This document shows positions 1,888 to 40,202 of a DNA stretch of 64,000 bases, piece by piece. This DNA comes from a virus. The notes under the pieces were generated by a model, which had not been told where the DNA came from, did not search any database, and was given only the letters and a program-made list of their open reading frames with translations. Where the stretch lies: positions 1 through 64,000 of IMG/VR virus record IMGVR_UViG_3300031576_000007; one strand, given 5' to 3'. Position numbers and translations under genes: made by a program. Positions within the stretch are counted from its first letter, which is position 1. The number at the start of each line of letters is the position of its first letter.

Positions 1888-2088
1888 ATGAAAGAAGTTT
1901 TAAAAGTTTATAAGTATGCATATTTGAGAACCCCTTTATATAAATGAGTACGTGAAAACGACAAAGGGGGCAGTTTCTCAAATAGTGGCCAGTTTAGAAC
2001 TAAAAAGGTATGTTTAAACCATGCAAGGGCAATGAATGCAAACACGTTTGACACTTTGCCTATTGAATTTATTGACGTGCTAGAATAG
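1888..2088 (+). pseudogene. hypothetical protein interrupted by in-frame TGA
   Basis: From ATG 1888 the frame gives 19 residues (MKEVLKVYKYAYLRTPLYK), hits TGA at 1945-1947, then stays open for 46 more convincing codons (VRENDKGGSFSNSGQ...PIEFIDVLE) to TAG 2086-2088. The next gene starts 10 nt later. TGA is one transition from TGG (Trp) or CGA (Arg). The gene is either inactivated, read through or mis-sequenced; TGA is a normal stop elsewhere in this window. Confidence 0.6.
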
Positions 2089-2097
2089 GGGCAATAA

Positions 2098-2286
2098 ATG
2101 ACTACTCTTGAGGTACTTTGTGGAGCTTTTGGCTGGTAAGGCGGAACCATTCATCAAGCGGAAGAATATTATGATTCCCTCTCTCCAATCAAAAAGGATA
2201 TTATATGCAATAAATTACTGCAAAATCTAAGAAAAATATCTGACCCAGAAAAGACTAGATATTTCACTAGAAATAAGCTAAAGTAG
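2098..2286 (+). pseudogene. small phage protein interrupted by in-frame TAA
   Basis: ATG 2098 starts MTTLEVLCGAFGW, then TAA at 2137-2139, then GGTIHQAEEYYDSL and on to TAG 2284-2286. The string FGW(Q)GGTIHQ matches, from memory, a recurring motif of small phage proteins, so the stop appears to replace a Gln codon (CAA to TAA). The codons after the stop look fully coding. Confidence 0.65.
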
Positions 2287-2293
2287 TAATAAA

Positions 2294-2497
2294 ATGAAAA
2301 ACATATATAAAAATAGCAGAATTAAAGAGTATATTAGAAAACTGTTTTTAAACAGAGTATATGAAGACATGCAAAAAAGACGAAGTAAAGGCACTTATCG
2401 TATATTTTCTCTTCCTTCTGATGCTGTTGAAATGGAAAAAGAAATTATTGAGAAATTAAGAAAGAAAAATAATGAATTATACTCACAAATATTTTGA
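2294..2497 (+). CDS. hypothetical basic coiled protein
   Basis: A 67-residue, highly charged, mostly helical protein (YEDMQKRRSKGTYR, then EKEIIEKLRKKNNELY). Its 3' end overlaps the next gene by 26 nt. No family is recognised. Confidence 0.5.
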   Translation: MKNIYKNSRIKEYIRKLFLNRVYEDMQKRRSKGTYRIFSLPSDAVEMEKEIIEKLRKKNNELYSQIF

Positions 2498-2633
2498 CAA
2501 TATTGAAAAAAAGATGGATACTATACTAGAAGAACTTTGGTATCTGATTGCAAAAATGAGTGTAAAGATAAAAAAATATGAAGAAAGAGCTTCTAAATGC
2601 AAAAAATGTAGTAAGGAGGAAATACATGTGTAA
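2472..2633 (+). CDS. hypothetical helical protein with CxxC
   Basis: A 53-residue frame from ATG 2472 to TAA 2631-2633. It is a single predicted amphipathic helix (YFDNIEKKMDTILEELWYLI) ending with CKKC and HV. It overlaps both neighbours, and its stop overlaps the next start as ATGTGTAA. The tight coupling supports it being real. Confidence 0.5.
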   Translation: MNYTHKYFDNIEKKMDTILEELWYLIAKMSVKIKKYEERASKCKKCSKEEIHV

Positions 2634-2868
2634 ATATCATAACAACAATTCATATAATGGTTTCGCGAATAGAGAGACATGGAATGTTGCTTTATGGATT
2701 AATAATGATGAAGGATTATACCACATGTCTAAGGAGTATGATAACTACTCTCAGCTAGTCGAATTTCTTAAGGAATTGGGGATACTTGAAGCCCCTGATG
2801 GAGTAAAGTATAATGATCTTAGATTGAATATCAGAGAACTTAACGAAGTAATAAAGGGCAATAAGTAA
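2626..2868 (+). CDS. small phage protein with NRETWNVALWI motif (DUF7249-like)
   Basis: ATG 2626 is chosen because an ideal AAGGAGG lies 6 nt upstream; an in-frame ATG at 2578 would lie inside the previous gene. The 80-residue product carries GFANRETWNVALWINND near the N-terminus. That motif recurs in many phage proteins (DUF7249-type, from memory). The rest is helical. Function unknown. Confidence 0.65.
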   Translation: MCKYHNNNSYNGFANRETWNVALWINNDEGLYHMSKEYDNYSQLVEFLKELGILEAPDGVKYNDLRLNIRELNEVIKGNK

Positions 2869-2872
2869 GCAT

Positions 2873-4573
2873 ATGGCAACCTGTTATTCATGTGATAGAT
2901 CTTTAAATAAAATAGAATATAAACTTGACGGGGAATCTGTATGTAAGCGCTGTTATTTCCAAAATACAACTGAATGCTTCGAGTGCGGTAATGTGGTAAA
3001 TAATAATAATAATATTACGATGTTAGGTAATAAAAATACACCATATTGTGCTACATGTGCCGAGGATTATTTTGCGTGCGTAAAATGTGAATCGGTAAAA
3101 AACAAAGAGGAATCAATCAATGTAAATGATGATTTTCTCTGTCAAGAATGTTTTGATGAATATTATATAAACTGTGTCAGTTGTAACTTAATTTATTCAA
3201 AAAATAATTCTATTCATGTGGACACTGGAAATGTAACTGAAGGAGACTATTGTCAGGGGTGCTACTCAAGGAACCTATTCCAGTGTTTTAATTGTCAGGG
3301 TCATTTTAATCTTAATGAGAGTTATACTGACCCTGACAATAACCATAGGTGTAATAACTGTTTCAGTGATTATGTATCTATTTGTGTAAATTGTAATGGT
3401 GTATATTGGGCTGATGATAATGAAATTATGTATACCGAAAACGGTACTTTTTGCGTGGATTGCGGGGCTCCTTTCAAGTTTGAAGAGTCTTCATCATTTC
3501 AAATAAATAATTCTAAAAGATTTGTGGGCTTCGAGTTAGAGTATTTGATACCAACACAAAGAGATCCAAGCCGAATAAAAATACTCAGTAAATATGGGAA
3601 AGTACAAGACGATGGTAGTATAAGTCCAACAGGAAAGATAGGTGGATACGGTGAGGAATTCGCAAGCAATGTTTTTAGCGGTGATTTATTGCTAGAAACT
3701 ATAGATAAAGTGTGTGAAAGTCTAAGCAATAGCGGAGCAAAAATTAACAAAACTTGCGGGCTCCATGTACATTTAGATATGAGGAGAGAGACAGAAATCG
3801 CGCAAGAGAACATATTCTATGCTTGGCAAGCTTTCGAAAAGATATTTTTTGCCGTTACTTCTATTTCGAGGAGGGGTAATCATTTTTGTAGATCGATAGA
3901 TAATTCTAGAACTTACGAAATCGCCAAGGGTATGGGTAGATATAATACTCTTAATGTCACCGCCTATGACAAGCATCAAACATTTGAAATAAGACTACAC
4001 CAATCTACATTAGAACCAACAAATATAAAGAATTGGGTAATGTTTCTAATAAGATTTTTTGATACATATTCAAAAATAAAAATGACAAGAGAGCGAATAA
4101 TAGAACTTACAAAAATGTCTGACAGGGAATTATTGCTAATGTTATTTTCACAAATTAAAATGCCTTTCGGTCTCAAAAAATATATAATGAAGAGAATTGA
4201 ACGTTTTAATAAGGATTCTAAAAATCAATTACTTCCCAGGTCTTATTTTGTGATAGATGAAGAAAAAGAGGACGAAAAAATACGGCAGATAATTTTAGAA
4301 AACAAAGTAACATATACTAATTTAAATGAAAAAAACTATAATGCTCTTTCTGAATATTATTTAGAAAAGTATAACGTAAGTGCTTTACAGGAAGTTCTCA
4401 GAAATTGCCAATGTGCTAACTGTGATAAAATTATAAGTGAAGGAGCTCGTTTCCTTAGCGCAGAAAAGGGGGTATTCTTGTATGATGGTAAACTTCAAGA
4501 ATTAATATCACACACAGTTTCAGAAGCTAAATTAAAAATGTATGAATCAAAGACAGAAAACAAAGGGAGCTAA
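2873..4573 (+). CDS. Cys-rich amidoligase-family protein
   Basis: A 566-residue two-part protein. Residues 1-205 hold about six treble-clef or LIM-like CxxC...CxxC units (CKRCYF, CFECGN, CATC, CVKCES, CQECFD, CVSCN and so on), likely zinc-binding and interaction modules. From about residue 215 comes an amidoligase_2-like domain with FVGFELEYLIP, DDGSI, EEFAS and CGLHVHLD, matching the Glu/His-rich metal-ATP site of this glutamine-synthetase-like fold. Members are predicted to form amide bonds between a carboxylate and an amine on peptides or cell-wall components. The next gene, 5 nt downstream, is a glutamine amidotransferase, a known partner that could supply ammonia or modify the product. 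The substrate is unknown. Confidence 0.8.
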   Translation: MATCYSCDRSLNKIEYKLDGESVCKRCYFQNTTECFECGNVVNNNNNITMLGNKNTPYCATCAEDYFACVKCESVKNKEESINVNDDFLCQECFDEYYINCVSCNLIYSKNNSIHVDTGNVTEGDYCQGCYSRNLFQCFNCQGHFNLNESYTDPDNNHRCNNCFSDYVSICVNCNGVYWADDNEIMYTENGTFCVDCGAPFKFEESSSFQINNSKRFVGFELEYLIPTQRDPSRIKILSKYGKVQDDGSISPTGKIGGYGEEFASNVFSGDLLLETIDKVCESLSNSGAKINKTCGLHVHLDMRRETEIAQENIFYAWQAFEKIFFAVTSISRRGNHFCRSIDNSRTYEIAKGMGRYNTLNVTAYDKHQTFEIRLHQSTLEPTNIKNWVMFLIRFFDTYSKIKMTRERIIELTKMSDRELLLMLFSQIKMPFGLKKYIMKRIERFNKDSKNQLLPRSYFVIDEEKEDEKIRQIILENKVTYTNLNEKNYNALSEYYLEKYNVSALQEVLRNCQCANCDKIISEGARFLSAEKGVFLYDGKLQELISHTVSEAKLKMYESKTENKGS

Positions 4574-4578
4574 AAAAC

Positions 4579-6258: not shown

Positions 6259-6271
6259 AAGGAGATAAAAA

Positions 6272-6420: not shown

Positions 6421-6430
6421 ATAAACAAGA

Positions 6431-7996: not shown

Positions 7997-8014
7997 TTGT
8001 GAGATAAAAGAGAT

Positions 8015-8715: not shown

Positions 8716-8736
8716 TGTTAAAAAGGGAGTGCCAAA

Positions 8737-9002: not shown

Positions 9003-9011
9003 AAGGAATAA

Positions 9012-19107: not shown

Positions 19108-19424
19108 TGAAGTGGGATACCAAGATAAAGCGTGTATCTAATGGGTATCTGTTAGAAATACCAAACGAGCGTGGTAAGCTAGAGCAGGTTATATTTGAAG
19201 ATGGTGAAAGAGACATTGATGATTTTAGGCCAGGCGGGGAACAGATAGATTCTTTTGCAGGACTACTATGGTTTATACAAGAACAAATAGGACCGTGTAG
19301 TGGTAGATATGATAAGAGGCGTCTGTACATAGTAATTAAACCTGGTGATAAGCACGAAGATTTTACCGAAGAACACTCAAAAGAGATATGGGGGGGCGAT
19401 GTTACGAAGCGTGGTAAAACATAA
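19107..19424 (+). CDS. conserved phage hypothetical protein, 105 aa
   Basis: Starts at TAATG and overlaps the peptide deformylase start by 26 nt. Beta-rich N-terminus (IKRVSNGYLLEIPNERGK) followed by IEDGERD-like acidic and GPCSGRYDKRRLYI segments. It resembles a common small phage family with unknown role. Confidence 0.55.
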   Translation: MKWDTKIKRVSNGYLLEIPNERGKLEQVIFEDGERDIDDFRPGGEQIDSFAGLLWFIQEQIGPCSGRYDKRRLYIVIKPGDKHEDFTEEHSKEIWGGDVTKRGKT

Positions 19425-19872
19425 TCCTAAGAAACCACACAAAAGTCCTCTTAAAATTAATAAGTGTAGCCCGATAACTGATTTCTCTTATGAAGGAAAA
19501 ATATGGATAAAAAAATTGATATCCGATATGAAAGACACCTGTACATCTATGAAAGGGGTAGGTTTAGCCGCGAATCAGATAGGTGTTTACAGACAATTGA
19601 TTTTGATAGCTGAACCTAAGAAACCTCATATTATAATGATTAACCCTAGAGTTATAGATAGTTATGGTGATATCATAGAGGAAAAAGAAGGATGTTTATC
19701 AGTTCCTGGGGTGTACGGAATAGTTAAACGACACCAATATGTAGTTGTTGAATTTAAAGATATAAATGGGGATGATAAAACATCTATATGTTGTGGCTAT
19801 GAAGCTCGTATAGTTTCCCATGAAATAGGACATTTAAATAATGAACTTTGCATAGAAAGATTTGAGAAATGA
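19399..19872 (+). CDS. def: peptide deformylase
   Basis: A 157-residue metalloenzyme that removes the formyl group from N-terminal Met of new proteins. All three signature motifs are present: GVGLAANQIG (about residue 49), EGCLSVPG (metal-binding Cys) and HEIGH (two His ligands and catalytic Glu). The last reads HEIGH where most members have HEIDH. ATG 19399 is preferred over 19345 because a G-rich ribosome-binding site precedes it. Phage deformylases are known mainly from marine cyanophages. This copy lacks a long C-terminal helix. Confidence 0.9.
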   Translation: MLRSVVKHNPKKPHKSPLKINKCSPITDFSYEGKIWIKKLISDMKDTCTSMKGVGLAANQIGVYRQLILIAEPKKPHIIMINPRVIDSYGDIIEEKEGCLSVPGVYGIVKRHQYVVVEFKDINGDDKTSICCGYEARIVSHEIGHLNNELCIERFEK

Positions 19873-20726: not shown

Positions 20727-20925
20727 ATGAAGTTTATAAAGTTAACAAAGCTAGGGGGAGGGGGTTATTATTATTAATGTGGATAAAATCCAAACAATAA
20801 TGCGTTGGGGGTCAGATAGCACAGATATTCATCTAACTGGAGGAGATTGTTGGACTGTTCATGAATCGCCCGAAGAGATCTATGAGCTTTGTGGGGGTGT
20901 TTTGAGCCCTAGCAAAGGTAATTAA
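20727..20925 (+). pseudogene. FlbD-family-like protein with frameshift in a G run
   Basis: ATG 20727 reads MKFIKLTKLGG and stops at TAA 20775-20777. One frame over, just past GGGGGAGGGGG (20754-20764), the sequence continues IIINVDKIQTI...DIHLTGGDCWTVHESPEEI to TAA 20923-20925. The joined product resembles FlbD (IKLTRLNG, I/N-P-D-I, VKESPEE). The whole span is 199 nt, one base too long, so loss of one G would restore the frame. It may be a sequencing error, a real inactivation or +1 frameshifting. Confidence 0.65.
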
Positions 20926-23358: not shown

Positions 23359-24156
23359 ATGAAGAATTTGATTACTATCTGTCTACTTTCATTGTCTTTA
23401 ATTGCCTGTAGTACAGAACAAGTTGATTTTACTCAACAAGGAACAAGTGGTAAAGACGGGGTAAATGGGACCAATGGTGCTAACGGTGTCGATGGGCAAG
23501 ACGGAGTTGATGGGGTTAATGGAAAAGATGGCCTAAACAGTATTTTTTCAATTTCTAATTTGGAGTCAGAGCAGGAAATCTGTTATTCTGGATCAGGGAT
23601 TATGATTTCGTCAGGTCTAGATGCTGATAAGGACAATGTTCTTGACCCAGAGGAAATTAATCCTGTGTCCGTTGCTTTTCTTTGTAACGGAGCTCCTGGA
23701 CCACAAGGTCCTCAAGGAGTAGCAGGACCAGCCGGAGCGGACGGAGAAGATGGAGCTAATGGCACCAATGGAACAAATGGGAGTAATGGTTCAGACGGGC
23801 AATCCTGTACTCTCCAAGATACAGAAGAAGGAGCACTTGTTACTTGTGGGGGAACACAGACTACAATCTATGATGGTCAGAACGGACAGGATGGGCAAGA
23901 CGGAGAAGATGGTACTGATGCTAATGCTGTGTTGACTTCTTATACTCTTACTAATAGTTGCCAGAATGTAGGAAATGGTTTCTATGCTAAGAAGTTTGGG
24001 TCAAATGCCAAGATTTATGACGATAATGATTGTGGTAATGATGACCTAGTTGCATCATTGGTTGAGAATTCAGATGAAGTGTTTATGACAAGTAATATTA
24101 TGTTTGTTGTGGAGGAAGGCCCATCTAGTGTAAAGTTGTATAAAGTAGTGTTCTAA
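23359..24156 (+). CDS. collagen-like lipoprotein with EF-hand-like block
   Basis: A 265-residue lipoprotein. The signal ends in a lipobox (SLIACS) and is preceded by AAAGGAGA. Several Gly-X-Y blocks follow (GKDGVNGTNGANG; GPQGPQGVAGPAG; GQNGQDGQDGEDG), separated by a block with LDADKDNVLDPEE, which looks like a calcium-binding EF-hand loop. Similar collagen-like lipoproteins with such blocks are common in Deltaproteobacteria and Bdellovibrionota envelope genes (from memory). Its role on a phage genome could be host-surface alteration. The in-frame start 144 nt further upstream lies in the OmpA gene and is rejected. Confidence 0.8.
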   Translation: MKNLITICLLSLSLIACSTEQVDFTQQGTSGKDGVNGTNGANGVDGQDGVDGVNGKDGLNSIFSISNLESEQEICYSGSGIMISSGLDADKDNVLDPEEINPVSVAFLCNGAPGPQGPQGVAGPAGADGEDGANGTNGTNGSNGSDGQSCTLQDTEEGALVTCGGTQTTIYDGQNGQDGQDGEDGTDANAVLTSYTLTNSCQNVGNGFYAKKFGSNAKIYDDNDCGNDDLVASLVENSDEVFMTSNIMFVVEEGPSSVKLYKVVF

Positions 24157-24249
24157 CAGAAAGCATCTTCCTTTATTGAGATAGATGCGTTTGCCGAGAG
24201 AGGCTGTGTTAATGGGGTCATAGCTCCTCTATAATAATTAAAGGACAAA
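24157..24249 (+). other. intergenic region with two hairpins and a TATAAT box
   Basis: A GCATCT/AGATGC stem is at 24163-24188 and a second, bulged stem (AGAGGCTGTG with CATAGCTCCTCT) at 24199-24230. Neither is followed by a T tract, so they are weak as terminators. TATAAT lies at 24230-24235 without a good -35. The pair may insulate the envelope cassette from what follows. Confidence 0.35.
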
Positions 24250-24994: not shown

Positions 24995-25243
24995 ATGAAT
25001 AAGTTTATTCTGGGATTTATTTCAGGAATTATTTTGTTTTATACTATTTTTAATGTAGTATTAATTATAGATACATCGAACGAATACAACACTTGTATGT
25101 ATAAGAAAAAACAAAATTAAGATAATTCAGAGCGTATTCATACACTATGTTCTAATGAAGCTGAATATACTAAAAATAGTTATGTGTACTTTATAGCGTT
25201 CCCTGCTATTTTTGTAAGAAAGGATACTTACAAATGGTTTTAA
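24995..25243 (+). pseudogene. membrane-anchored small protein interrupted by in-frame TAA
   Basis: ATG 24995 (overlap with the exonuclease stop) gives MNKFILGFISGIILFYTIFN, a membrane helix, then a Cys-containing periplasmic-type region up to KKKQN and TAA at 25118-25120. The frame continues DNSERIHTLCSNEAEY to TAA 25241-25243, overlapping the next gene. The stop is one C-to-T change from CAA (Gln). Confidence 0.55.
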
Positions 25244-25653: not shown

Positions 25654-25845
25654 ATGAAATGCCCGAAAAAATATGGTTGTTATGATATTAGGATAGATGA
25701 TTGTCGTTATTGTAATGAAGGTTTACTCTATCAAACTTGCTCATGTTGTAAAAATACCCCAGCTTGTGCTGGGTGGAATGATTAAACAGGCCCAAAATGC
25801 TGTGGGTGCTACGAGTTAATACATGATCATAATTCTAAAAGTTGA
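25654..25845 (+). pseudogene. Cys-rich zinc-finger-like protein interrupted by in-frame TAA
   Basis: ATG 25654 starts MKCPKKYGCYDIRIDDCRYC, then CSCCKNTPACAGWND and TAA at 25783-25785. The same frame continues TGPKCCGCYELIHDHNS to TGA 25843-25845, four bases before the next start. The extra Cys/His residues after the stop fit the same zinc-binding design, so the stop probably replaces Gln (CAA to TAA). Confidence 0.6.
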
Positions 25846-27093: not shown

Positions 27094-27410
27094 ATATTAA
27101 TGAAATAGCGGAAGAAGTTTACGAAGGAATGAAAAATAATGGTTTCTATCTTGGTGATAGAAGACCTTTAGAAGAATATGCACTATTCACTACTGAGATC
27201 GCCGAGGCAACCGAGGCTTGGAGAGGCGGTTTAGAGCCAGTGACAATTATTGATGGTAAACCAGAAGGTGAAGCTATTGAATTAACTGACTGTATAATGA
27301 GAATAATGGCTTATTTTGTAGTTAATAATTGGGATTTGGAAAAGATTCTTATAAAGAAACACGAATATAACAAAACAAGATCTAAGAATCACGGAGGTAA
27401 AAGAATATGA
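27090..27410 (+). CDS. MazG-like NTP pyrophosphohydrolase
   Basis: A 106-residue all-helical protein with TTEIAEATEAWRGG (ExxE-type acidic helix) and AIELTDCIMRIMAYF (second acidic ExxD helix), as in MazG/iMazG-like enzymes that hydrolyse (d)NTPs to (d)NMP and PPi. It could clean the dNTP pool or lower alarmone levels. Starts by ATGA overlap. Confidence 0.7.
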   Translation: MNINEIAEEVYEGMKNNGFYLGDRRPLEEYALFTTEIAEATEAWRGGLEPVTIIDGKPEGEAIELTDCIMRIMAYFVVNNWDLEKILIKKHEYNKTRSKNHGGKRI

Positions 27411-27637
27411 AAAGCATTAAAGAGCGTGAAGCAAAAGGAACCGAAGGGTTTCTTATGAACGAAGTTGGGGATAAACCATATTTTAGAGTGTATAAAAGTA
27501 ACGGCGAATTTGTAGATTATGATATTTTTCATAGTGACCTTCAAATAACCGTTACTGATGATGATGCCTTTTTTAAAGGAGAAGATATAGCTGAACCTTA
27601 CTTAGATTACTCCAATAAAACGTTGGGGGAAGATTAA
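27407..27637 (+). CDS. hypothetical acidic protein, 76 aa
   Basis: ATGA overlap with the MazG-like gene. Acidic, beta-rich (PYFRVYKSNGEFVDYDIFHSD), like several conserved phage proteins. Its TAA overlaps the first base of the likely ATT start of the next frame. Confidence 0.5.
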   Translation: MKSIKEREAKGTEGFLMNEVGDKPYFRVYKSNGEFVDYDIFHSDLQITVTDDDAFFKGEDIAEPYLDYSNKTLGED

Positions 27638-27831
27638 TTAAAAATATACATAATGTAGATACTCTTCCGAATGAGTGCCAAAATGATCCTAATCATGAAT
27701 ATTTCTTCAATGATGGAGATAATTATGATATTATAGAGAAGATAAATTACATGAATAATCTAGAAGGTATATTAGGTGTTGCTGGGTGTTACAATTGCGG
27801 GCATACTTGGTATATTCCTTATAAGGACTAA
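27637..27831 (+). CDS. hypothetical protein with possible ATT start
   Basis: A 64-residue coding frame (NIHNVDTLPNECQNDPNHEY ... GVAGCYNCGHTWYIPY) with a C-x2-C-x-H zinc-like end but no ATG, GTG or TTG at its head. ATT 27637 overlaps the previous TAA exactly as ATG would in TAATG, and GGGGGA lies 7 nt upstream. Either AUU is used as start, or a G-to-T change has broken the gene. The protein pattern is convincing. Confidence 0.5.
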   Translation: MKNIHNVDTLPNECQNDPNHEYFFNDGDNYDIIEKINYMNNLEGILGVAGCYNCGHTWYIPYKD

Positions 27832-27864: not shown

Positions 27865-29904
27865 ATGGATATAGAATGGAAGAGATACCCGCATATCGAA
27901 CGACTTGATAGTCAAGAAGTAGAAGGTTTATTATTACTTCCAGAAATTTGGGTAGAGCCTAAAATCGACGGTTGTTTTGAATATGACACAAAAATTCTTC
28001 TTTCAGATGGTTCTTATAAAAACATAGGAACTATAGTAAATAAAAACTTAAATGTAGATGTTTTAAGTTATGATATAACTAAAAAAGAGCTTGTCCCACA
28101 AAAAATTATTGGTAAATTTAAATATAAGGCTGAACCATACGATTGGATGACCATAAAAGTTAAAGGAATTGTTGGTGATTTACAAAGTGGTGGCGGTAGG
28201 GATAAACACTTACGATGTACAAAAAATCATAAATTCATAACAAGTTTGACCCCCTTCCAAGAAACTATGGCTAAAGATTTAAAAAATAATGACGAAGTTT
28301 TTATTCCCCAAAAGTTCCCTTCTATGGTTCAATCTCAAGTAATACTGGGAACTTTATTGGGAGATGGCTTTGCTTATCCTAATAATAAAAACATTTATTG
28401 TAATGGAATTTGTTTTAGCCACAGCATAAAACAATTAGAATATTTAAAATTTAAAAAAACACTCCTTGGCGGGCTCTGGAAAACAGGAAAAGGGTATATA
28501 AGCAGGTATGGGTCAATCGTTATTAGATCTACTACAAAATGTAATAAAATTACTCAATTTCTCTATGAAAAGGTATACTTAAATAATAAAAAAAATATAA
28601 CTAAAAAATTATTATTAAACTTAAATTCTCTTGGATTGGCTATTTGGTACATGGATGACGGTTCGTTAGCCCATAGTCCTGCTCAACAGGACAGAGCGAT
28701 ATTCCATACCTCTGGTTTTCTTGATGATGAACAAAATATCATATGCCAATATTTTAATGATCATGGGTATAGGTCTAGTATACAAAATGCAGATGGGTAT
28801 AAAATTATTGTGCTAGACTCTATTGGAACTCAAAATTTATTTTCCGATATTGGACAATATATTATTCCAAGTATGCAATATAAATTATCTAAAAACTTTA
28901 GAGATCGATTTACCCCTATTAAAGATACTGAAAAAATTAATCCAAGCGGGTTAATAAAAAGAAAAATTATTGAAATAAAACCATATATTCTACCAGGGTA
29001 TAAACCAAAATCTAAATATAAATATGATTTAGAAATTGAAAATACACATCTTTATTTTGCTAACAATGTTTTGGTACACAATTCTAACGCGTCAGTATTA
29101 AGAAAGAACGGTTCTTTAAATGTTGCAAAAAGAAGCCAAATAATTGGAGAAGGTGATGATTTTAGAGGTCTCAAAACTCATATACAAACTAATGCCAACA
29201 ATTTCAATAAGTTTTTTGATAAACATCCTAATACTATAGTATACGGCGAATTTTTAATAAAACATACAATTGGCTTCTATCGTCCCCAGGCCTTTAACAA
29301 ATTTTATGCTTTTGATATTTTAGATTTAGAAACTAATAGATTTCTGAGGCCCGATACTAGAGTAGAGTTCCTTAAAGAATTTGATATAAATCTAGTCCCA
29401 CCCCTTGCAAAAATTAAAGGCCCTATTTCTGGCGATGATCACATAGAACGATTACAACAAATGGCTAATTCGAATAAATATCTTATTGATGAAACTGATA
29501 AAGTTGGAGAAGGTATCGTAATAAAGAGCTTCAATAATGATATTCCTTATACTAATAAGTATGGTAGAACTACTTGGGGTAAAATTGTTAGGCAGGAATT
29601 TAAAGAGGCCCACTCAGTTGAAATGGGTGTAGCAGATTTATCTTTTAAAGAACAGAAGGAACAAATTTTTTCTGAGATATTTGTAACTGAGGGTAGAATA
29701 GAAAAGATAAAGCAAAAAATAATGTTTGAGAAAGGTACTAGATGGGATTCTAAATATATTGGAGAATTATTGGGCAGAGTTTATAATGATGTGTTTACTG
29801 AAGAGCTTTGGGGATTCGTAAAAAAGGAAAAAATTGTAAATATAAATTTTAAGACCCTTAATCAAATGGTTATAATAAGAACTAAACAGATTTTAGGCTT
29901 ATAG
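27865..29904 (+). CDS. RNA ligase precursor containing an intein
   Basis: A 679-residue precursor; 309 residues after splicing. The joined extein reads EPKIDGSNASV, the nucleotidyltransferase motif I with Lys33 as AMP acceptor. It is followed by YGEFL (motif III-like), EGIVIKSF (motif IV) and WGKIVRQEF (motif V). This fits T4 Rnl2-like/DraRnl RNA ligases, which seal nicks or breaks in RNA. Starts at ATG 27865 after GGAGGAGG. The intein sits right after KIDG, inside the active-site motif. A partner polynucleotide kinase is not evident nearby. Confidence 0.85.
   Translation: MDIEWKRYPHIERLDSQEVEGLLLLPEIWVEPKIDGCFEYDTKILLSDGSYKNIGTIVNKNLNVDVLSYDITKKELVPQKIIGKFKYKAEPYDWMTIKVKGIVGDLQSGGGRDKHLRCTKNHKFITSLTPFQETMAKDLKNNDEVFIPQKFPSMVQSQVILGTLLGDGFAYPNNKNIYCNGICFSHSIKQLEYLKFKKTLLGGLWKTGKGYISRYGSIVIRSTTKCNKITQFLYEKVYLNNKKNITKKLLLNLNSLGLAIWYMDDGSLAHSPAQQDRAIFHTSGFLDDEQNIICQYFNDHGYRSSIQNADGYKIIVLDSIGTQNLFSDIGQYIIPSMQYKLSKNFRDRFTPIKDTEKINPSGLIKRKIIEIKPYILPGYKPKSKYKYDLEIENTHLYFANNVLVHNSNASVLRKNGSLNVAKRSQIIGEGDDFRGLKTHIQTNANNFNKFFDKHPNTIVYGEFLIKHTIGFYRPQAFNKFYAFDILDLETNRFLRPDTRVEFLKEFDINLVPPLAKIKGPISGDDHIERLQQMANSNKYLIDETDKVGEGIVIKSFNNDIPYTNKYGRTTWGKIVRQEFKEAHSVEMGVADLSFKEQKEQIFSEIFVTEGRIEKIKQKIMFEKGTRWDSKYIGELLGRVYNDVFTEELWGFVKKEKIVNINFKTLNQMVIIRTKQILGL
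27973..29082 (+). mobile_element. intein with LAGLIDADG endonuclease in RNA ligase
   Basis: 370 residues from Cys1 (CFEYDTKILLSDG) to terminal LVHN, with Ser+1 following. Block B CTKNHKF, block F YDLEIENTH. LAGLIDADG helices LGTLLGDGF and AIWYMDDGS both keep an acidic residue. Insertion is between KIDG and SNAS of motif I, so the ligase cannot work before splicing. Confidence 0.9.
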
Positions 29905-30143: not shown

Positions 30144-30623
30144 ATGGCACATATCCTGAATGAATATTTAGCTGGGGTTGCTGATTCAGATGGATCATTT
30201 ACATTTCCGAAACATAAGCGAAGTAATAATCCAAATGGATACACATTTAGACCTGCCTTCCAGCTTACATGGAAGTATAGTGACCATTCCTTAAGTGTGT
30301 TTAAGGATTTGAAAAAAAAATATAAAGGAAGTTTTTATATTGGGAGAAGTCATTCAGGATATAATAAAACTAAATCAAAAATAATTAAATACTACGTCCA
30401 AGGACAATCTTTGATTGATTTATGCAAAGATATTGTTCCTTTTTTACGACTAAAAAAGAAACAGGCTAAATTAATTTTGGAACACTGGAAATCAGTTAAA
30501 CCGAGAGGAACGTGGAACCAGTGGCACAAAAAGCCAAAATTAATTTATAATAAAGAAAATGATTTATACAAAAAATTTTATAAATTAAATACTAAAAATA
30601 AAAGGAAAAGATATGCACACTAA
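30144..30623 (+). CDS. free-standing LAGLIDADG homing endonuclease
   Basis: A 159-residue single-motif endonuclease with YLAGVADSDGSF at residues 8-19 and a very basic C-terminal half (WKSVKPRGTWNQWHKKPK). Single-motif members act as homodimers. It is not fused to an intein. It lies just upstream of, and overlaps by 11 nt, a HAD-phosphatase gene whose frame is broken, and follows the intein-bearing RNA ligase region. AGTAAGAAAAA serves as a weak ribosome-binding site. Confidence 0.85.
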   Translation: MAHILNEYLAGVADSDGSFTFPKHKRSNNPNGYTFRPAFQLTWKYSDHSLSVFKDLKKKYKGSFYIGRSHSGYNKTKSKIIKYYVQGQSLIDLCKDIVPFLRLKKKQAKLILEHWKSVKPRGTWNQWHKKPKLIYNKENDLYKKFYKLNTKNKRKRYAH

Positions 30624-31006
30624 ATCCCCAAGCGGAGAAGAGTGGTTTTTTTTTTGATGTAGATGACACATTGGTAATGTGGCCAAAAAGAAAAGACACA
30701 AACTTTAAACCTGATGTTACGATTAGGAATCCTTATTACACTGGTGACCCCTACACGCTAGATAAACCAGAGTTTGCCCTAAAAAGACACAAAAAACACA
30801 TTGAAGAGTTAAAATCTTTTAAGCTACAAGGTAATACTGTGGTAGTATGGTCAAAGGGAGGACGCCCTTGGGCACTAGAAGTCATAAAAGCACTTGAACT
30901 AGAGGCATTTGTGGATCATGTTCTCCAGAAACCAGATATTCTTTATGATGATGAACACCATAAATACTGGTTTCCAATGCTTCCTAGATGGCGTAAGGAT
31001 GAGTAA
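30613..31006 (+). pseudogene. HAD-family protein with frameshift in a T10 run
   Basis: ATG 30613 reads MHTKSPSGEEWFFF and stops at TGA 30655-30657. In the other frame, after ten T (30646-30655), the sequence is DVDDTLVMWPKRKD (HAD DxDxT motif), VVVWSKGG (motif II) and ILYDDEHH, to TAA 31006. Nine T would give WFFFDVDDTLVMW in one frame. The product would be a nucleotidase-like HAD of about 130 residues. Frameshift, sequencing error or slippage are all possible. Confidence 0.65.
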
Positions 31007-31327: not shown

Positions 31328-31985
31328 TGTAAGACTAATTTCGATAACAAAACCAGAAATAACTCTTAATGATAAACATCTTACACCAGAAGACTTAATA
31401 GTGTATTGTGCTAGAGTATCTAGCCCCAAAAATCAAGAGAATACAGGAACGGGGCAGAAGTTATTAGAGTATTGTATATCCAACAAGCATTGGTCTATAT
31501 TTGAGATGGTTAATATGTGTGTAGAAATTATAACTAGCAGGGCTATATCTGCACAGATATTGAGGCATAAATCTTTCTCCTTCCAAGAGGCTAGCCAAAG
31601 GTATTCAGAAGTTCAAAATTTTGAAATTTATGAAGCCAGACGACAGGACCTAAAAAATAGACAAAATAGTGTGGATAATCTATCTGTAGAAACAAAAGAG
31701 TGGTTTGATAAAGCTCAAAATGATATAATAATTAAGTCTAATGAGTTATATTCAGAAGCTTTAAATAAAGGCATAGCTAAAGAGTGTGCAAGATTTCTTC
31801 TTCCTCTAAATACTAAAACAAAACTCTACATGAATGGTAGTATAAGGAGCTGGATTCATTACTTAGATCTAAGAACAAGTAATGGGACGCAGCTTGAACA
31901 TAAAGACATTGCTGAAGAGATAAAAGAGATATTTATTATTAATTTCCCACTTATTTCGAAAGGGTTAAAATGGGAGACACGGTAG
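31320..31985 (+). CDS. thyX: flavin-dependent thymidylate synthase
   Basis: A 221-residue ThyX. The signature RHRx7S is represented by [17 protein letters not shown] (about residues 82-98). Upstream are CARVSSP and [10 protein letters not shown]; downstream are [23 protein letters not shown] and [10 protein letters not shown], with the substrate-binding Arg and Ser. The enzyme makes dTMP from dUMP with FAD and methylene-folate. ATG 31320 sits 8 nt before the upstream stop. It fits with the class II reductase and dNMP kinase in one dTTP supply line. Confidence 0.9.
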
Positions 31986-32143
31986 AAAAAATTCAATTAG
32001 AAAAACTAATAATTTTTCTGGTGTCAAAAGGAATAGTATCTCAAGGGAAATTATCTAGTATTGTGGGAATTTCACGTTCTGAATTCATATAAAAATATTC
32101 TAATTGTATTGCTCTTGTAGAGGAACAATTAAGTAGTGAATGA
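31970..32143 (+). pseudogene. HTH-like small protein interrupted by in-frame TAA
   Basis: ATG 31970 overlaps the thyX end. It encodes 40 residues ([35 protein letters not shown]), stops at TAA 32090-32092, and continues KYSNCIALVEEQLSSE to TGA 32141-32143, overlapping the next GTG. The internal stop is one transition from CAA (Gln). The stretch SQGKLSSIVGISRSEF looks like a short helix-turn-helix. Confidence 0.5.
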
Positions 32144-33063: not shown

Positions 33064-35895
33064 ATGTCTTATCCTTTTAGAAATGAACTATCAGAATTCG
33101 TGTTCTATCGGACCTATGCGAGGTGGTTAGATAGAGAAAAACGAAGAGAAACTTGGGATGAAGTTACAGAAAGATATTTTAACAATGTAATAAATAAGCA
33201 TAAGGACACAGTTCCTAGAAAGATACAGGCAGAAATAAAAGATAATATTTTTAAAATGGCTTCCATGCCCTCTATGAGAGGGTTGTGGTGTGCTGGTCCA
33301 GCTCTAGATATATCGAATGTGTGCTTGTTTAATTGCTCATATTTGCCTATAAAAGATTTATTTTCATTTGCTGAAATGTTGTATATACTATGCTGCGGGA
33401 CAGGTGTAGGTTTTAGTGTGGAAGAAGAAAACATAACCCAACTTCCTGAAATACAGAGACAAACTAGTGCAGGTGCAGGAATACACGAGGTTGAAGATTC
33501 TAAAGAAGGATGGGCGGATTCTTTAATGGCTGGTCTAGAAACGTGGTTTTCAGGTAAAGATATAGAATTTAATTATGATAAAATAAGACCTAGAGGGGCT
33601 AGACTGATAACATTCGGGGGCAGAGCTTCAGGCCCAGAACCTTTAAAGAGACTTCATGAATTTTCAAAAAAGATTATACTAGAAGCCCAAGGTAGAAAAC
33701 TAACCAGTCTTGAATGTCATGATATATGTTGTAAAATTGCCGAAATCGTTGTAGTTGGTGGGGTGAGACGTTCAAGCCTAGCAAGTTTTAGCGATTTAAA
33801 TGACGAGTTACTAATGAAAGCTAAAAATCCTCCTTTTCCTTCTCATAGGTATATGAGTAATAATTCTGCTGTCTACACTAAAAAACCAGATAGTGTTACT
33901 TTCATGAGAGAGTGGTATAATTTGGCGGCATCTGGGACAGGGGAACGGGGTATATATAATATACCTAATTTAAGTAATTATGCACCTAGAAGAATTTTTA
34001 CAGGTAAGGAGAGAAGCAATCCTTGTTTCGAAATTATATTGAAGCCATTCGAATTTTGTGTAGCCGGGGATACTCCTTTGATTCACAAAACAGGTATTTT
34101 AAATATTAAGAATGCTGTAAACAAGCCCATAGAAATATGGAATGGAGAAAAATGGAGCTTAGTAACTGTACGTAGAACCAGAAGGGACCAAAAACTAGTA
34201 CGAGTAACCTTAACTGATGGTTCTTACTTAGACTGCACTCCAGATCATAGGTTTTCAGTTAAAACAAGATTTATGAAATATTTTAAAGAAGTTCCTGCAA
34301 GTAGACTATTAAATAGCGATTATTCTTTACAATGTGAAAATTTTTCAATAGATAATATAGGAGGAATTAGAGCAGAAGACGCATATGATATTGGATTCTC
34401 CGTTGGGGACGGTTTTATACAAAAAAATATGGTGTATGCTAACTTATATGGAGAAAAAGATAAAAAATGCCCAATTAAGGGGATTCGTTATAAAGAATAT
34501 CTTCCTAAAGGATATAGTGTGTCTAAAATAAGAATTAAAACAGGTTTAGACGCTACACTCATTTCTTCGCTTAAAACAGATTCTAATGCTAGTGATATTT
34601 TATTTACATGGGATAGGCCCTCTGTTTTGAAATTTATAGCTGGTTTAGCTGACGCTGATGGATCAGAAACAAAAACAGGTGGCATACGCATTTATATAAG
34701 TGACGAAAAAAGAGTACGAAAGTTTCAACTTCTATTAACTAAAAATGGTATTAGATCTTCTGTTAATCTTTTACAGAAAAAAGGAACCAGAACCAATTTA
34801 TCAGTCCGTAAAAAAGATTTATGGTACTTACAGATTACAGAGTGCAATGAAATTCCTTGTTTTAGATTAGATACTTCGGGGGGGCATAAAACTAAATATA
34901 AAGGAAAATACCAAAATATAAAATCAGTTGTTTTATTGAGGGGGTTACATGATACATATTGTTTTAATGAACCAGAAAAACACAAAGGAGTATTTTCAAA
35001 TGTGTTAACCTATCAATGTAATCTATCAGACGTTGTTGTAAGGGCATCAGATTCATTTGATGATTTGGTAGATAAGGTTAGAGCAGCTACTTGGATCTGC
35101 GCTATCCAATCAACTTTTACTAATTTTAAATATATACGATCAGAATGGAAAAGCAACTGTGACGAAGAAAGGCTACTTGGGGTTTCATTAACAGGCCAGT
35201 TAGATAATCCAAAACTACTTAGCGAGGAAAAATTACAGATATTGAAAGAATATTCTATAAAAACAGCTAAAAAAGCAGCGGAAGCACTAAAGATAAATTT
35301 ATCGGCAGCTATAACAACAACCAAACCAAGTGGCACTGTTTCTCAATTAGTTGATTCAGCATCAGGGTGTCATCCAAGATACTCTAAATTTTATACAAGA
35401 AGGGTACGAATTTCTGATACAGATCCTTTATTTAAAATGATGAGAGCGCAGGGGGTCAAATTTGAACCAGAAGTAGATCAGGACCCTAAAAATCCGGATA
35501 CCTGGGTAGTCTCTTTTCCTGTTAAATCACCTAAAAATTCTATAACTAGGGATGAGATGACGGCTATTGAACAACTTAACTGGTATAGGAAACTTCAAAA
35601 TAATTGGTCTGAGCATAATAATAGTGTTACAATTTATGTAAAAGAAAACGAATGGCCAGAAGTCGGATCATATGTTTATAAACATTTTGATGAAATAGTT
35701 GGGGTAAGTTTTTTACCTTATGATGGTGGTAAATATAAATTGGCTCCTTATGAAATGATAACTGAAGAGGAATATAACAAAAATAAGGAAAAATTCCCAA
35801 AAATAAATTATTCTGACCTTTATAAGTATGAGGAAGAAGATAATACTGAAGGAGCTAAATCATACGCTTGTATAGGAGATCGTTGCGAGATATGA
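33064..35895 (+). CDS. nrdJ: class II (B12-dependent) ribonucleotide reductase precursor with intein
   Basis: 943 residues; 623 after splicing. It has NVCLFNCSYLPI, GTGVGFS, EIVVVGGVRRSS and RGIYNIPN, then NPCFEIILKPFEF/CNLSDVVVR across the intein, then TKPSGTVSQLVDSASGCHPR, and FLPYDGGKYKLAPYE near the end. The last two blocks are typical of monomeric adenosylcobalamin-dependent ribonucleoside-triphosphate reductases. The C-terminal CIGDRC could be the redox-shuttle pair. The enzyme needs host cobalamin and no separate radical subunit. Somewhat shorter than the usual 700-740 residues. Confidence 0.9.
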   Translation: MSYPFRNELSEFVFYRTYARWLDREKRRETWDEVTERYFNNVINKHKDTVPRKIQAEIKDNIFKMASMPSMRGLWCAGPALDISNVCLFNCSYLPIKDLFSFAEMLYILCCGTGVGFSVEEENITQLPEIQRQTSAGAGIHEVEDSKEGWADSLMAGLETWFSGKDIEFNYDKIRPRGARLITFGGRASGPEPLKRLHEFSKKIILEAQGRKLTSLECHDICCKIAEIVVVGGVRRSSLASFSDLNDELLMKAKNPPFPSHRYMSNNSAVYTKKPDSVTFMREWYNLAASGTGERGIYNIPNLSNYAPRRIFTGKERSNPCFEIILKPFEFCVAGDTPLIHKTGILNIKNAVNKPIEIWNGEKWSLVTVRRTRRDQKLVRVTLTDGSYLDCTPDHRFSVKTRFMKYFKEVPASRLLNSDYSLQCENFSIDNIGGIRAEDAYDIGFSVGDGFIQKNMVYANLYGEKDKKCPIKGIRYKEYLPKGYSVSKIRIKTGLDATLISSLKTDSNASDILFTWDRPSVLKFIAGLADADGSETKTGGIRIYISDEKRVRKFQLLLTKNGIRSSVNLLQKKGTRTNLSVRKKDLWYLQITECNEIPCFRLDTSGGHKTKYKGKYQNIKSVVLLRGLHDTYCFNEPEKHKGVFSNVLTYQCNLSDVVVRASDSFDDLVDKVRAATWICAIQSTFTNFKYIRSEWKSNCDEERLLGVSLTGQLDNPKLLSEEKLQILKEYSIKTAKKAAEALKINLSAAITTTKPSGTVSQLVDSASGCHPRYSKFYTRRVRISDTDPLFKMMRAQGVKFEPEVDQDPKNPDTWVVSFPVKSPKNSITRDEMTAIEQLNWYRKLQNNWSEHNNSVTIYVKENEWPEVGSYVYKHFDEIVGVSFLPYDGGKYKLAPYEMITEEEYNKNKEKFPKINYSDLYKYEEEDNTEGAKSYACIGDRCEI
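34057..35016 (+). mobile_element. intein with LAGLIDADG endonuclease in ribonucleotide reductase, ends in Gln
   Basis: 320 residues from Cys1 (CVAGDTPLIHKTG) to LTYQ, then Cys+1. Block B CTPDHRF. Endonuclease helices IGFSVGDGF and IAGLADADGS. The last residue is Gln and the one before is Tyr, instead of the usual His-Asn, so cleavage must use Gln cyclisation, a known but rarer variant. Insertion is at the Cys of FEF/CNLSD, a highly conserved reductase site. Confidence 0.85.
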
Positions 35896-36401: not shown

Positions 36402-36847
36402 ACAGAAAACTAGATAGATTTTTGGTAAAGAGATTCCAGTCTATATTTGCCCAGAGATATCAAGATATGACTACCACTGCTATGTGCTGGGGCTTCATGT
36501 GTGGTGATGGTTGGGCAAGGCTCATATATGATCTTTGCTTAAAGATAGAACTTCTAGAAAAGACTTTCGGTATAGTAATTGAAGCTAGTCAGGTTAAGGA
36601 GAAGTATGGGCTATTGTGTTTTTATGTGTATTCGGATTATACTAAAGTTTCTAATGCGAAGCTTGGTAAAATGTTATGCAGTATGGTTAGTGATTTGATT
36701 TGTTCTGCGGAAGATAGAAGTGGTCAGTTGTGCGAAGTTTGCGGGGATTACGGGCAGGTTTACCCAGGTAGCTGGATTGTAACGAGGTGCGAGGATTGTG
36801 CTTTAGAAGAAGGTAGGGTTCTTGTGGATGAAAGCGAGCTACCATAA
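36398..36847 (+). CDS. conserved phage hypothetical protein, 149 aa
   Basis: ATGA overlap. Contains MCWGFMCGDGWARLI, ASQVKEKYGLLCFYVYSD and a C-terminal zinc-type CEVCGDYG...CEDC. The CGDGW...QVKEKFG pattern recurs widely in phage genomes as a protein of unknown function. Last gene before the structured non-coding stretch. Confidence 0.65.
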   Translation: MNRKLDRFLVKRFQSIFAQRYQDMTTTAMCWGFMCGDGWARLIYDLCLKIELLEKTFGIVIEASQVKEKYGLLCFYVYSDYTKVSNAKLGKMLCSMVSDLICSAEDRSGQLCEVCGDYGQVYPGSWIVTRCEDCALEEGRVLVDESELP

Positions 36848-36850
36848 GAT

Positions 36851-37118
36851 CTTATTGGGCTGTGTACCCAATAAGTGTAGTTACTAGTTAACCTATGAAA
36901 CTAGACGTTTTAAGGAAACGTAAATTCCTGTCGGCATTGGTAGTTGGCCCAAAACTAATTACCACAGATTTAACTACTGCATCGTCAGCCTACGCGAGGA
37001 CTGTAACGGTGGCTATGCTGAAATAGCGATGTTTTACTCTTTTCCATAGTGCTATACCGAGAAAGAGACGCCAGGTACGATATGATCAAAAGAAACTAGA
37101 CAAAATTTGTATGTCTAG
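36851..37118 (+). ncRNA. candidate structured RNA (hairpin-rich non-coding segment)
   Basis: About 390 nt between genes without a convincing protein, with many consecutive stems. A 9-bp stem CTTATTGGG/CCCAATAAG is at 36851-36875. Others are CTAGTT/AACTAG at 36884-36904, ACGTTT/AAACGT at 36905-36921, TGGTAGTT/AATTACCA at 36938-36964, a branched unit GCATC/GATGT at 36979-37032 enclosing AGCC/GGCT, CTCTTTT/GAAAGAG at 37037-37067, and CTAGACA/TGTCTAG at 37096-37118. The stems are not followed by T runs. No known riboswitch, tRNA, tmRNA or group I intron core is recognised. GC content is above the surroundings. Confidence 0.45.
36895..37026 (+). CDS. possible 43-aa ORF inside the structured segment
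   Basis: ATG 36895 to TAG 37024-37026 encodes MKLDVLRKRKFLSALVVGPK and on. No ribosome-binding site, GC-richer codons than neighbours, and the same bases pair in hairpins. An RNA reading is preferred, but translation cannot be excluded. Confidence 0.15.
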   Translation: MKLDVLRKRKFLSALVVGPKLITTDLTTASSAYARTVTVAMLK

Positions 37119-37214
37119 CACATCTAACCCCGGATGCAGTAATTAATATTGAAATCAATAAGTTATAAAACCGTGCTTTACTATAAACTATAAACTATCA
37201 ACTAAAGAAATTAA

Positions 37215-37244
37215 ATGACTTTACCTAATAAAGTGTGGTATAAT
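37215..37244 (+). promoter_or_regulatory. extended -10 promoter before the recombination/replication genes
   Basis: ATGACT at 37215-37220 (four of six to consensus), 18-nt spacer, TATAAT at 37239-37244 with TG upstream (TGGTATAAT). It follows the structured segment and would transcribe the 37.3-39.3 kb genes. Confidence 0.5.
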
Positions 37245-37294
37245 AAGGAATATAAATACCAAACATAAAACTAATAGAGGACAAACAATTTAAA

Positions 37295-37546
37295 ATTTTA
37301 AGGATATTATGTAGTTGTCTAGCCCCAGAGCACACATATGACATAATAGTTGATAAAGAATTTGGTTTCACAGAGATCGCTCATAATTTAAATAAAGATC
37401 TAAATGAGCCATGTCTTAGTAGATTAAAAAATGCATTCAAGTATGTTTTAGGAAAATCATTATTGGTTTCAGGACTTGTCTTAGAAAAAGAAGATGTAGA
37501 GGAAATGATTAAGTTCTTACAAGAAAATGTAAAAGGTATGAAATGA
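37295..37546 (+). CDS. hypothetical protein with no standard start codon
   Basis: A coding-looking frame (CLAPEHTYDIIVDKEFGFTE ... EMIKFLQENVKGMK) ends at TGA 37544-37546, overlapping the next ATG. Upstream to the in-frame stop at 37253-37255 only ATA and ATT codons are available (ATT 37295; ATA 37274 or 37304). AGAGGA at 37276-37281 could serve as ribosome-binding site for ATT 37295. Either a rare start or a lost ATG. The function is unknown. Confidence 0.4.
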   Translation: MLRILCSCLAPEHTYDIIVDKEFGFTEIAHNLNKDLNEPCLSRLKNAFKYVLGKSLLVSGLVLEKEDVEEMIKFLQENVKGMK

Positions 37547-38064
37547 CTGAAGAGTTAAAAACTCCTGAAAAGGAAGAAGAAAAAGAAAAGCAGTGGACTT
37601 CTGCGGATTGGTTCTTAAACCCAGAAGTTCTTTATCTTAAGCCTGAAGAGTGTAGAGAAGTTACCCTAAACCCAGGGTATGAAGTAGAGTGGTTTAGAAA
37701 GACTTATTTAAACAAAGGGGAATTAGTTCTTACCAAGAAGGAGTATAGATCAGATCTTCCTAGAAATCTTAAAGGCAAGATCATAGCTGTCACAGCTGCT
37801 CCTATTATAAGGAAAGACGATTTTAACAGAATGGTTGAACGACAACCATATATAAGTTTACAAAAGTTTCTTAAACCTAAACCGCTTGGCAAGTATTATG
37901 AGCTGTTTAAAGCTGATACTAGTGAGTATCAAGAATGGGTTGGCCCGCATGAGTATATCGAAGATAGACGAAAAAATAAAAAAGTACATAGAACTTCTGA
38001 TGAAAACAAGAGTGGATCTAGAAAACCTCAAGAAAGAGCCTTCCTCGTTGTTAAGATTAAGTAA
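37543..38064 (+). CDS. hypothetical protein, 173 aa
   Basis: ATGA overlap with the preceding frame. Very acidic and Lys-rich start (ELKTPEKEEEKEKQW), then a mixed alpha/beta body (EVTLNPGYEVEWFRKTYL; GKIIAVTAAPIIR). The last 116 nt overlap the next gene in another frame, which is unusual here; the C-terminal tail (RTSDENKSGSRKPQ) may not be functional. No family. Confidence 0.5.
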   Translation: MTEELKTPEKEEEKEKQWTSADWFLNPEVLYLKPEECREVTLNPGYEVEWFRKTYLNKGELVLTKKEYRSDLPRNLKGKIIAVTAAPIIRKDDFNRMVERQPYISLQKFLKPKPLGKYYELFKADTSEYQEWVGPHEYIEDRRKNKKVHRTSDENKSGSRKPQERAFLVVKIK

Positions 38065-38158
38065 AGGAATGGCAACTCTCCCAGAATTAAAAGAAAGAGT
38101 AGTTAATTATAGAACTTTTTTAGCAGATCTTATAGAAATAAAGAAAAAAGATGAGTGA
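37949..38158 (+). CDS. hypothetical coiled protein, 69 aa
   Basis: ATG 37949 begins MSISKIDEKIKKYIELLMKT, a strongly helical coiled-coil-like protein. It overlaps the previous gene by 116 nt and the nuclease gene by 8 nt. An in-frame ATG at 37886 is less likely. The overlap could indicate an unrecognised frameshift joining both frames. Confidence 0.5.
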   Translation: MSISKIDEKIKKYIELLMKTRVDLENLKKEPSSLLRLSKGMATLPELKERVVNYRTFLADLIEIKKKDE

Positions 38159-39296
38159 AATAAAAAAATATACTATGTCCCACAGCCGAGCTTCCACTTG
38201 GCTTGAGTGCCCTGAAAAAGAGCATCTTAGATATGTTGAACACGTAGAACCTAAAGAATATGGGTCTAGCTTGGCTTTTGGTATAGCCATAGACATTGCT
38301 GTAAGTCATCTTCTTAAACTACACAAAGAAGGTAAAACACAGGAGGGTATTAACTCACTAAAAAGTATTTTTCTTGACGATAAAGAAAAAGGGTGGAAAT
38401 TATCTTTTTCGGCTCCTGGAATAAAATTTACAAAAACTGATTTAGATATGTCTGTGTTAGTATCTAAGGAAGATAAAGATTTAATTGAGTTTTGGGAAAC
38501 ATCTCTCAATACAAAGCTAGAAGATGCTGTAACTGCAAAAAGACAACAAGAATACAAAGAAATGACTGAAGAAGAGATTACTATTCTTCATCATGCAACT
38601 TGGTTGTCCTTGAGGAATAAAGGATATTTGATGCTAGATGCATTTGTTAGAGAGGTACTACCAAAAATAAAGAAAGTCATAGCAATTCAACATAAAATTG
38701 AGGGGACTATCGAGGGAGATAAGGATGCAAAGGGGTATATTGATTTTATTGTTGAGTTTGATGGTCATAGTACCCCAGTGGTTTTTGATCTCAAAACTTC
38801 TGCTTACTTTTATGATAGTAATGCAGTATTTCTTTCACCACAGCTCACACTTTATGCTAGTGCTGTAGGAAGTTCATTGGGCACAGAATTAGCTGGATTC
38901 ATAGTTTTATTGAAAAGTATGGGGGGCACGTCAGTATGTGAAAAATGTCTCTATAAAAAAGAAAAAGGAAGTAGATTTAAGTCATGTAATAGGATCATTC
39001 CTTTAGATGTAGATACTAATGTCGGGGAAAGATGTAATGGGGTTTGGATAGAAATACCTGAAGCAAATGTGCAGATTTTAGTAGATAAAGTTCCTGTTAA
39101 ACGCCAAGATCAGTATTTAAACAGCTTTGTTAATTTAACAACATTGGCTAGTCAGGGCCTCAGAATTCAAAATTGGAATTCATGTAAAGGAAAATTTGGA
39201 ATATGTGATTTCTACAGACTTTGTCATTTTTCCGATACTTCAGATTATAAATTTGCGGATAAGGAATCAGAAGAGCGGGTAAAACATAGAACATGA
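38151..39296 (+). CDS. RecB/Cas4-like PD-(D/E)XK nuclease
   Basis: 381 residues. N-terminal SHSRASTWLECPEKEHLRYVE (motif QS/xxC type) and AFGIAIDIAV. Catalytic core KGYIDFIVEFDG...VVFDLKTSAYFYD with D and DxK, and QLTLYASAVG (QxxxY). C-terminal Cys pairs (CEKCLYKK, CNRI, CDFYRLC) suggest an iron-sulfur cluster as in AddB/Cas4. It would process DNA ends alongside the Erf annealing protein downstream. Confidence 0.8.
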   Translation: MSEIKKYTMSHSRASTWLECPEKEHLRYVEHVEPKEYGSSLAFGIAIDIAVSHLLKLHKEGKTQEGINSLKSIFLDDKEKGWKLSFSAPGIKFTKTDLDMSVLVSKEDKDLIEFWETSLNTKLEDAVTAKRQQEYKEMTEEEITILHHATWLSLRNKGYLMLDAFVREVLPKIKKVIAIQHKIEGTIEGDKDAKGYIDFIVEFDGHSTPVVFDLKTSAYFYDSNAVFLSPQLTLYASAVGSSLGTELAGFIVLLKSMGGTSVCEKCLYKKEKGSRFKSCNRIIPLDVDTNVGERCNGVWIEIPEANVQILVDKVPVKRQDQYLNSFVNLTTLASQGLRIQNWNSCKGKFGICDFYRLCHFSDTSDYKFADKESEERVKHRT

Positions 39297-40089
39297 ATTT
39301 TAAAAAATGTAATAAATGCGAAAAAGTTAAAGAATATTCTTTTTTTTATAAGTCTAAAACACTTAAAGAGGGGGGGGGAGTTCTTGCAAAAAATGTCTTA
39401 AAATATATAGAAAACTTGGTTATTTTATAAATAGTGCGGGAAACCATATAATAAAACGCAGGAAAACTAAAAAATGTGGGATTTGTAAAAAACACCAAAA
39501 AATATATCAATTTTACATTAGAAATGTTAAATATAAATCTAAAAAAGATGGAAATATAAAGATTTACAAAGCTCGTGTTTCTTATTGTAATACATGCCAC
39601 AAGTTAGGAATTAAAAAACATCATTACAAAGTATGGAGAAAAGAGTACAAAAAAGCTATAACTGCTAAATGACCCATAGCTCGAAGAAACGCAAGAGTTA
39701 GTAATCATGGTTGGTATCTTTCAAAACAGCAATATTTCGAGCTTATGGCAAAAATGTGTTATTATTGCGAAGGTAAGTTGCCTGTTTATGGAACTGGCTT
39801 AGATAGACTAAACAGCTCAAAAGGATATGAAAATACAAATGTTGTACCTTGTTGCACAGCTTGTAATAGAGTAAGAGGGGCTGTCCTATCAGTAGATAAT
39901 ATGTTAGAAATTAAACAATTTCTAATAAGGTGGAGACTAGAGAGGGAAGAATTAATTGCTGAGCAGATAGTTAAAAAAACTGAAGTTGAGCATACAATAA
40001 CTCAAGAGATTCTACAACAGAAGAGCACAGAGAAATTGTATGATGAATCTTATACATATATGGGTAATTTAGGCTCTATCGTTTATTAA
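39293..40089 (+). pseudogene. HNH endonuclease gene with poly-G frameshift and in-frame TGA
   Basis: ATG 39293 starts NFKKCNKCEKVKEY (zinc finger CxxC). Nine G at 39370-39378 shift the frame; the right frame continues SSCKKCLKIYRKLGYF and on through CGICKKH and CNTCHKL to TGA 39670-39672, then IARRNARVSNHGWYL to a clear HNH end (CYYCEG, LDRLNSSKGYENTNVVPCCTAC) and TAA 40087-40089. Whole, it would be an about 264-residue phage HNH endonuclease. TGA may replace Trp or Arg. The last 115 codons still form an open frame from ATG 39745. Confidence 0.7.
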
Positions 40090-40202
40090 TGTAGATAGTC
40101 TGAAAAGTAGTATTAGAACATCAAATAGCAGCTTTTTTTATATATATAGGAATCGCCGCTATTATTAGTGCTATATTTAATAAATATGGTTGTGACGATT
40201 GA
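40089..40202 (+). pseudogene. degraded small membrane-peptide gene
   Basis: ATG 40089 overlaps the HNH stop (TAATG), but codon 2 is TAG (40092-40094) and codon 5 TGA (40101-40103). After them the frame reads KVVLEHQIAAFFIYIGIAAI to TGA 40200-40202. It looks like a lost membrane peptide. It is weak evidence alone, but matches the pattern of other stops here. Confidence 0.3.

Follow-up and report, generated by a model that had tools for sequence, protein, structure and literature searches.

In-frame stops in small genes of a phage known from metagenomic sequence: probably common gene decay, with assembly error as a possible alternative

Do the in-frame stop codons scattered among the small genes of this phage DNA break genes, and, if so, by what process? 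The window analyzed here covers positions 1 to 64,000 of a virus record 111,989 bp long, with a GC content of approximately 33%. An earlier note had drawn attention to 8 stops, TGA 1945, TAA 2137, TAA 25118, TAA 25783, TAA 32090, TGA 39670, TAG 40092, and TGA 40101, and had regarded all of them as interruptions of frames fitting exactly between their neighbors. All 8 are present at those positions and in the frames claimed, and their standing as interruptions ranges from strong to unsupported.

The window and its relatives

All clear genes of the window lie on the + strand. In the other 48 kb of the record, which contain the terminase and tail genes, coding is mostly on the − strand. The replication genes in the window include those for a primase-helicase, DNA polymerase, UvsX, RNA ligase, and ribonucleotide reductase (RNR). 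Genes of fewer than 100 codons make up 71 of the 134 called in the window and contribute about 13.8 of the 61.5 kb of called coding DNA. Megablast comparison of bases 1–25000 with phage isolates revealed no close relative, and the IMG/VR relatives found for the RNR are only 35% to 51% identical; searches with the RNR, amidoligase, DNA polymerase, and the proteins of the 1945 and 25118 genes returned distant relatives or none.

Several other features of the window were recorded. The phage encodes a peptide deformylase (19399–19872) and an amidoligase-like protein (2873–4573). Split family matches or LAGLIDADG, HNH, or endonuclease profiles occur at 27865–29904, 33064–35895, 43657–46839, 54569–56575, and 58466–60700, in genes for RNA ligase, RNR, DNA polymerase, UvsX, and a dehydrogenase-like protein, a pattern as in intein-carrying genes; if inteins are confirmed, the phage would be unusually intein-rich. 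An Rfam scan of the window gave no match, including in a stretch of approximately 370 bases without a convincing gene (36846–37214), which folds better than its shuffled versions (z −2.6).

Stops that interrupt genes and stops that may simply end them

The following features bear on the individual stops:

1888–2088, + strand: small gene of 66 codons cut by TGA 1945 (19 codons before, 46 after), with a coding-like extension
2098–2286, + strand: small gene of 62 codons of the GW[Q]GGTIHQ family, cut by TAA 2137, as indicated by homology
23359–24234, + strand: gene for a collagen-like lipoprotein; its stop, TAA 24154, is followed by a coding-like in-frame extension of 25 codons; candidate interruption
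24995–25243, + strand: membrane-protein-like frame of 82 codons cut by TAA 25118, with a coding-like extension
25654–25845, + strand: Cys-rich small frame with TAA 25783; interruption unsupported
31970–32143, + strand: HTH-like frame of 40 amino acids ending at TAA 32090, with a 16-codon extension (P 0.023 before multiple testing)
39293–40089, + strand: HNH/endonuclease VII-like gene with 2 lesions, a frameshift at the 9-G run 39370–39378 and TGA 39670, as indicated by homology
40089–40202, + strand: membrane-protein-like frame without a usable start, following TAG 40092 and TGA 40101, proposed from codon usage
40199–40227, + strand: predicted consensus sigma-70 promoter (TTGACA-17-TATAAT, 12/12 match) upstream of the Erf gene

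Each of 130 gene stops was scored for an in-frame extension into DNA without another assigned gene, and 5 extensions stood out, namely those at 25118 (the top coding-like score of the scan, with a log-likelihood ratio [LLR] of 14.0), 1945, 24154, 2137, and 32090. The probability that a stop-free extension in first-order Markov sequence scores equally high, before correction for the approximately 130 stops, is 0.00025 for 25118, 0.0019 for 1945, 0.0039 for 2137, 0.006 for 24154, 0.023 for 32090, and 0.20 for 25783. On composition alone and with that correction, 25118 is the only one of these 6 to survive; 39670 also stands. With unsupervised gene calls, 3 cases were observed against 0.94 expected (P 0.06), and extensions of 14 codons or more were as numerous as expected. 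Because this excess is only marginal, the fit of the frames between their neighbors, on which the earlier note had relied, is weak evidence by itself.

Homology strongly argues that TAA 2137 interrupts a gene of the GW[Q]GGTIHQ family, at a conserved residue. Two intact homologues match the 2098–2286 product over the full protein length, with 48% and 46% identity. When IMG/VR was scanned for GW[Q]GGTIHQ with the codon in question left free, 23 loci were recovered, a set from which the record itself and near-identical ones may be absent; the residue at this position was Gln in 20 loci, Thr in 2, and Lys in 1, and a stop in none. The comparison with relatives that had been suggested as a check is thus informative at 2137, and searches yielded no homologue of the 1888–2088 or the 24995–25243 product.

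The case for TGA 39670 as an interruption of an HNH/endonuclease VII-type gene is likewise strong. The match to PHROG 1035 spans the stop, 4 phage homologues continue unbroken across its position, and the halves of the gene are also matched separately; PHROG 3118 is matched as well. The sole start codon between TGA 39670 and the HNH domain, ATG 39745, has no evident ribosome-binding site. The frame change at the 9-G run splits the N-terminal zinc-ribbon-like motif of the same gene. An HNH/endonuclease VII domain gene carries inactivating lesions here, as expected of a decaying homing HNH endonuclease.

At 1945 and 25118, the extensions themselves support interruption. The gene at 1888 starts with an ATG preceded by a good Shine–Dalgarno sequence, AAAGGA, and the 46 codons following TGA 1945 are stop-free, coding-like, and free of any other gene. 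For 25118, the support comes from the extension score given above.

Beyond these 4 sites, the proposed interruptions are less secure. The 16 codons following TAA 32090 weakly suggest an interruption, and the extension at 25783 scores as noncoding and overlaps the next called gene. The status of stops 40092 and 40101 is ambiguous. In the 31 codons that follow, codon usage is coding-like and the encoded sequence resembles a membrane protein; the stops are codons 2 and 5 of a frame with no usable start, and no homology to it was found. Codon statistics may favor hydrophobic stretches in an AT-rich genome, and we therefore do not count this frame as an interrupted gene without homology. The end of the frame overlaps the predicted promoter at 40199–40227, which probably serves the Erf-like recombination gene (assigned by PHROG 155; likely start GTG 40250, behind AAGGAG).

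Some of the proposed interrupted genes could thus be real short genes whose ends merely happen to precede random open sequence, or no genes at all. For part of the sites, we consider such coincidence only a little less probable than an even bet: the unsupervised excess is marginal, the extension at 25783 is noncoding and that at 32090 short, and the 40092/40101 frame combines the lack of a start with a perfect promoter at its end. This explanation fails at the two sites with homology, 2137 and 39670, and the extension scores make it unlikely at 25118 and 1945. In general, homologues are needed before a stop between small phage genes is called a lesion.

Large essential genes had been said to carry no such stops, and this holds: the RNR, DNA polymerase, primase-helicase, UvsX, and RNA ligase genes have no interrupted frame. 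One exception among the larger genes, absent from the earlier account, is the candidate at TAA 24154 in the collagen-like lipoprotein gene.

Frame changes at homopolymer runs and the case for consensus error

Two further small genes show apparent frame changes, neither of them among the lesions first described:

20728–20925, + strand: small FlbD-like gene; the frame shifts at the GGGGGAGGGGG run, around 20754–20764, two frames being read as one
30612–31006, + strand: gene resembling those of HAD phosphatases; the frame shifts at the T10 run 30646–30655, as indicated by the motif position

Read across its frames, the FlbD-like gene matches PHROG 8458 (E 7.5e-5) and Pfam FlbD (E 7e-5). The HAD-like gene has a weak Pfam match (E 0.016), and its FFDVDDT motif lies immediately after the T10 run, in a frame different from that of the upstream ATG. 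Since these 2 genes show frame changes, the broken set does not consist of transitions only. A frameshift-tolerant gene model called many false frameshifts at gene overlaps, and for this reason its output served only to suggest candidates. At 27620, an apparent frameshift was dismissed because the product of 27407–27637, judged by its sequence, looks complete; the next frame merely lacks a standard start. Two coding-like frames, 37225–37545 and 27640–27831, have no standard start; in the former, AAGGA precedes an ATA. Outside the window, a gene of the tail/baseplate region matching PHROG 150 (baseplate hub) shows what looks like a frame change at TTTTTT near position 84655 of the record (− strand), which could reflect programmed frameshifting or a gene overlap.

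Long homopolymer runs are also where sequencing or assembly fails, and in a metagenomic contig a single wrong base or a homopolymer of the wrong length would mimic a broken gene. Such error would fit the frame changes at a G-rich run and at the 9-G and T10 runs, which are the record's longest runs of G and of T. A uniform error process, however, would also strike the approximately 48 kb of larger genes, and these are clean except for 24154; moreover, 4 A9 runs and 1 G8 run lie within called frames that stay open. With nearly all lesions in small genes, uniform consensus error, one of the causes first listed, is unlikely, and error at single sites, above all at homopolymer runs, is possible. 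Taken as a whole, we judge this explanation improbable, although it deserves more weight than deamination or recoding.

Probable decay of dispensable genes versus deamination and recoding

The earlier observation that each stop lies one C:G to T:A transition from a sense codon is true and uninformative. It follows from the structure of the code, in which TAA can arise from CAA, TAG from CAG or TGG, and TGA from CGA or TGG. Because every stop codon fits it, the pattern carries no evidential weight for deamination, and being one C-to-T step from sense must not pass as a deamination signature. C-to-T deamination by a host deaminase or DNA damage is compatible with 2137, where the nearest homologues have Gln, and 2137 is the only site at which homologues point to such a change. 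As frameshifts occur beside the nonsense lesions, we regard deamination as the source of the stops as very improbable.

Full-length products obtained by programmed read-through, by phage or host nonsense suppression, or through an alternative genetic code are just as hard to credit. The frames do stay open downstream of the stops, and widespread apparent read-through has been argued for bacteria (PMC7918605). All three codons are nonetheless ordinary terminators in this phage (TAA ends 68 genes, TGA 49, and TAG 13 of 130), and large genes are free of in-frame stops. The recommended look for suppressor tRNAs, on the phage side, yielded no tRNA gene anywhere in the 112-kb record, the window included. 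Stop reassignment and suppression by phage tRNAs are rejected on these grounds. The affected codons, TAA, TGA, and possibly TAG, share no common 3′ context, and no stop is conserved at 2137 among the 23 loci, which together with the lack of tRNAs speaks against programmed read-through as a cause. Inefficient suppression by the host or an unseen factor, giving low-level expression of small genes through the stops as dosage control, is the least probable proposal of all.

The best reading, to which we assign a probability of approximately 0.62, is that relaxed selection has recently let small accessory or mobile genes lose their function. Of the causes listed at the outset, such decay is also the best supported: the lesions are of mixed type, comprising nonsense changes in 2 or 3 codon classes and frameshifts at homopolymer runs, most of them are in small or mobile genes, and at 2137 and 39670 intact homologues are continuous across the stop. 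Nonsense mutations would recently have removed the full-length product of 4 to 7 small accessory or mobile genes, frameshifts at homopolymer runs would have disabled at least 2 further small genes, and selection would have kept the replication and large structural genes clean. The lesions would be young, because the remainder of each frame is still open, and would persist or drift because the affected genes are dispensable; their youth, their neutrality, and the lack of translation past the stops are what we infer from the DNA. If real, the lesions show which genes this uncultured phage, which has no near relatives, can do without. The finding as a whole is ordinary, probably gene decay and possibly an effect of assembly error.

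Comparison with known systems

Phages that recode stops carry the recoded codons in frame across many genes and encode suppressor tRNAs (genetic code 15 and similar; PMC9523058). The present phage resembles them in having in-frame stops in its genes, but differs in that its three stops all terminate normal genes and tRNAs are absent. Bacterial read-through genes (PMC7918605) likewise have frames open past the stop; the evidence given there is conservation with purifying selection, whereas here the sole small gene with relatives has no conserved stop.

A literature search found no surveys of phage pseudogenes. The likeness to phage pseudogenes and decaying homing-endonuclease genes lies in single nonsense or frameshift lesions within small frames that are otherwise open, the HNH gene carrying 2, and no tested feature separates the present case from ordinary examples of either. 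As a putative homing enzyme, the product of the HNH gene would fit the cycle of gain, decay, and loss of homing endonucleases (PMC2988022, PMC13405050).
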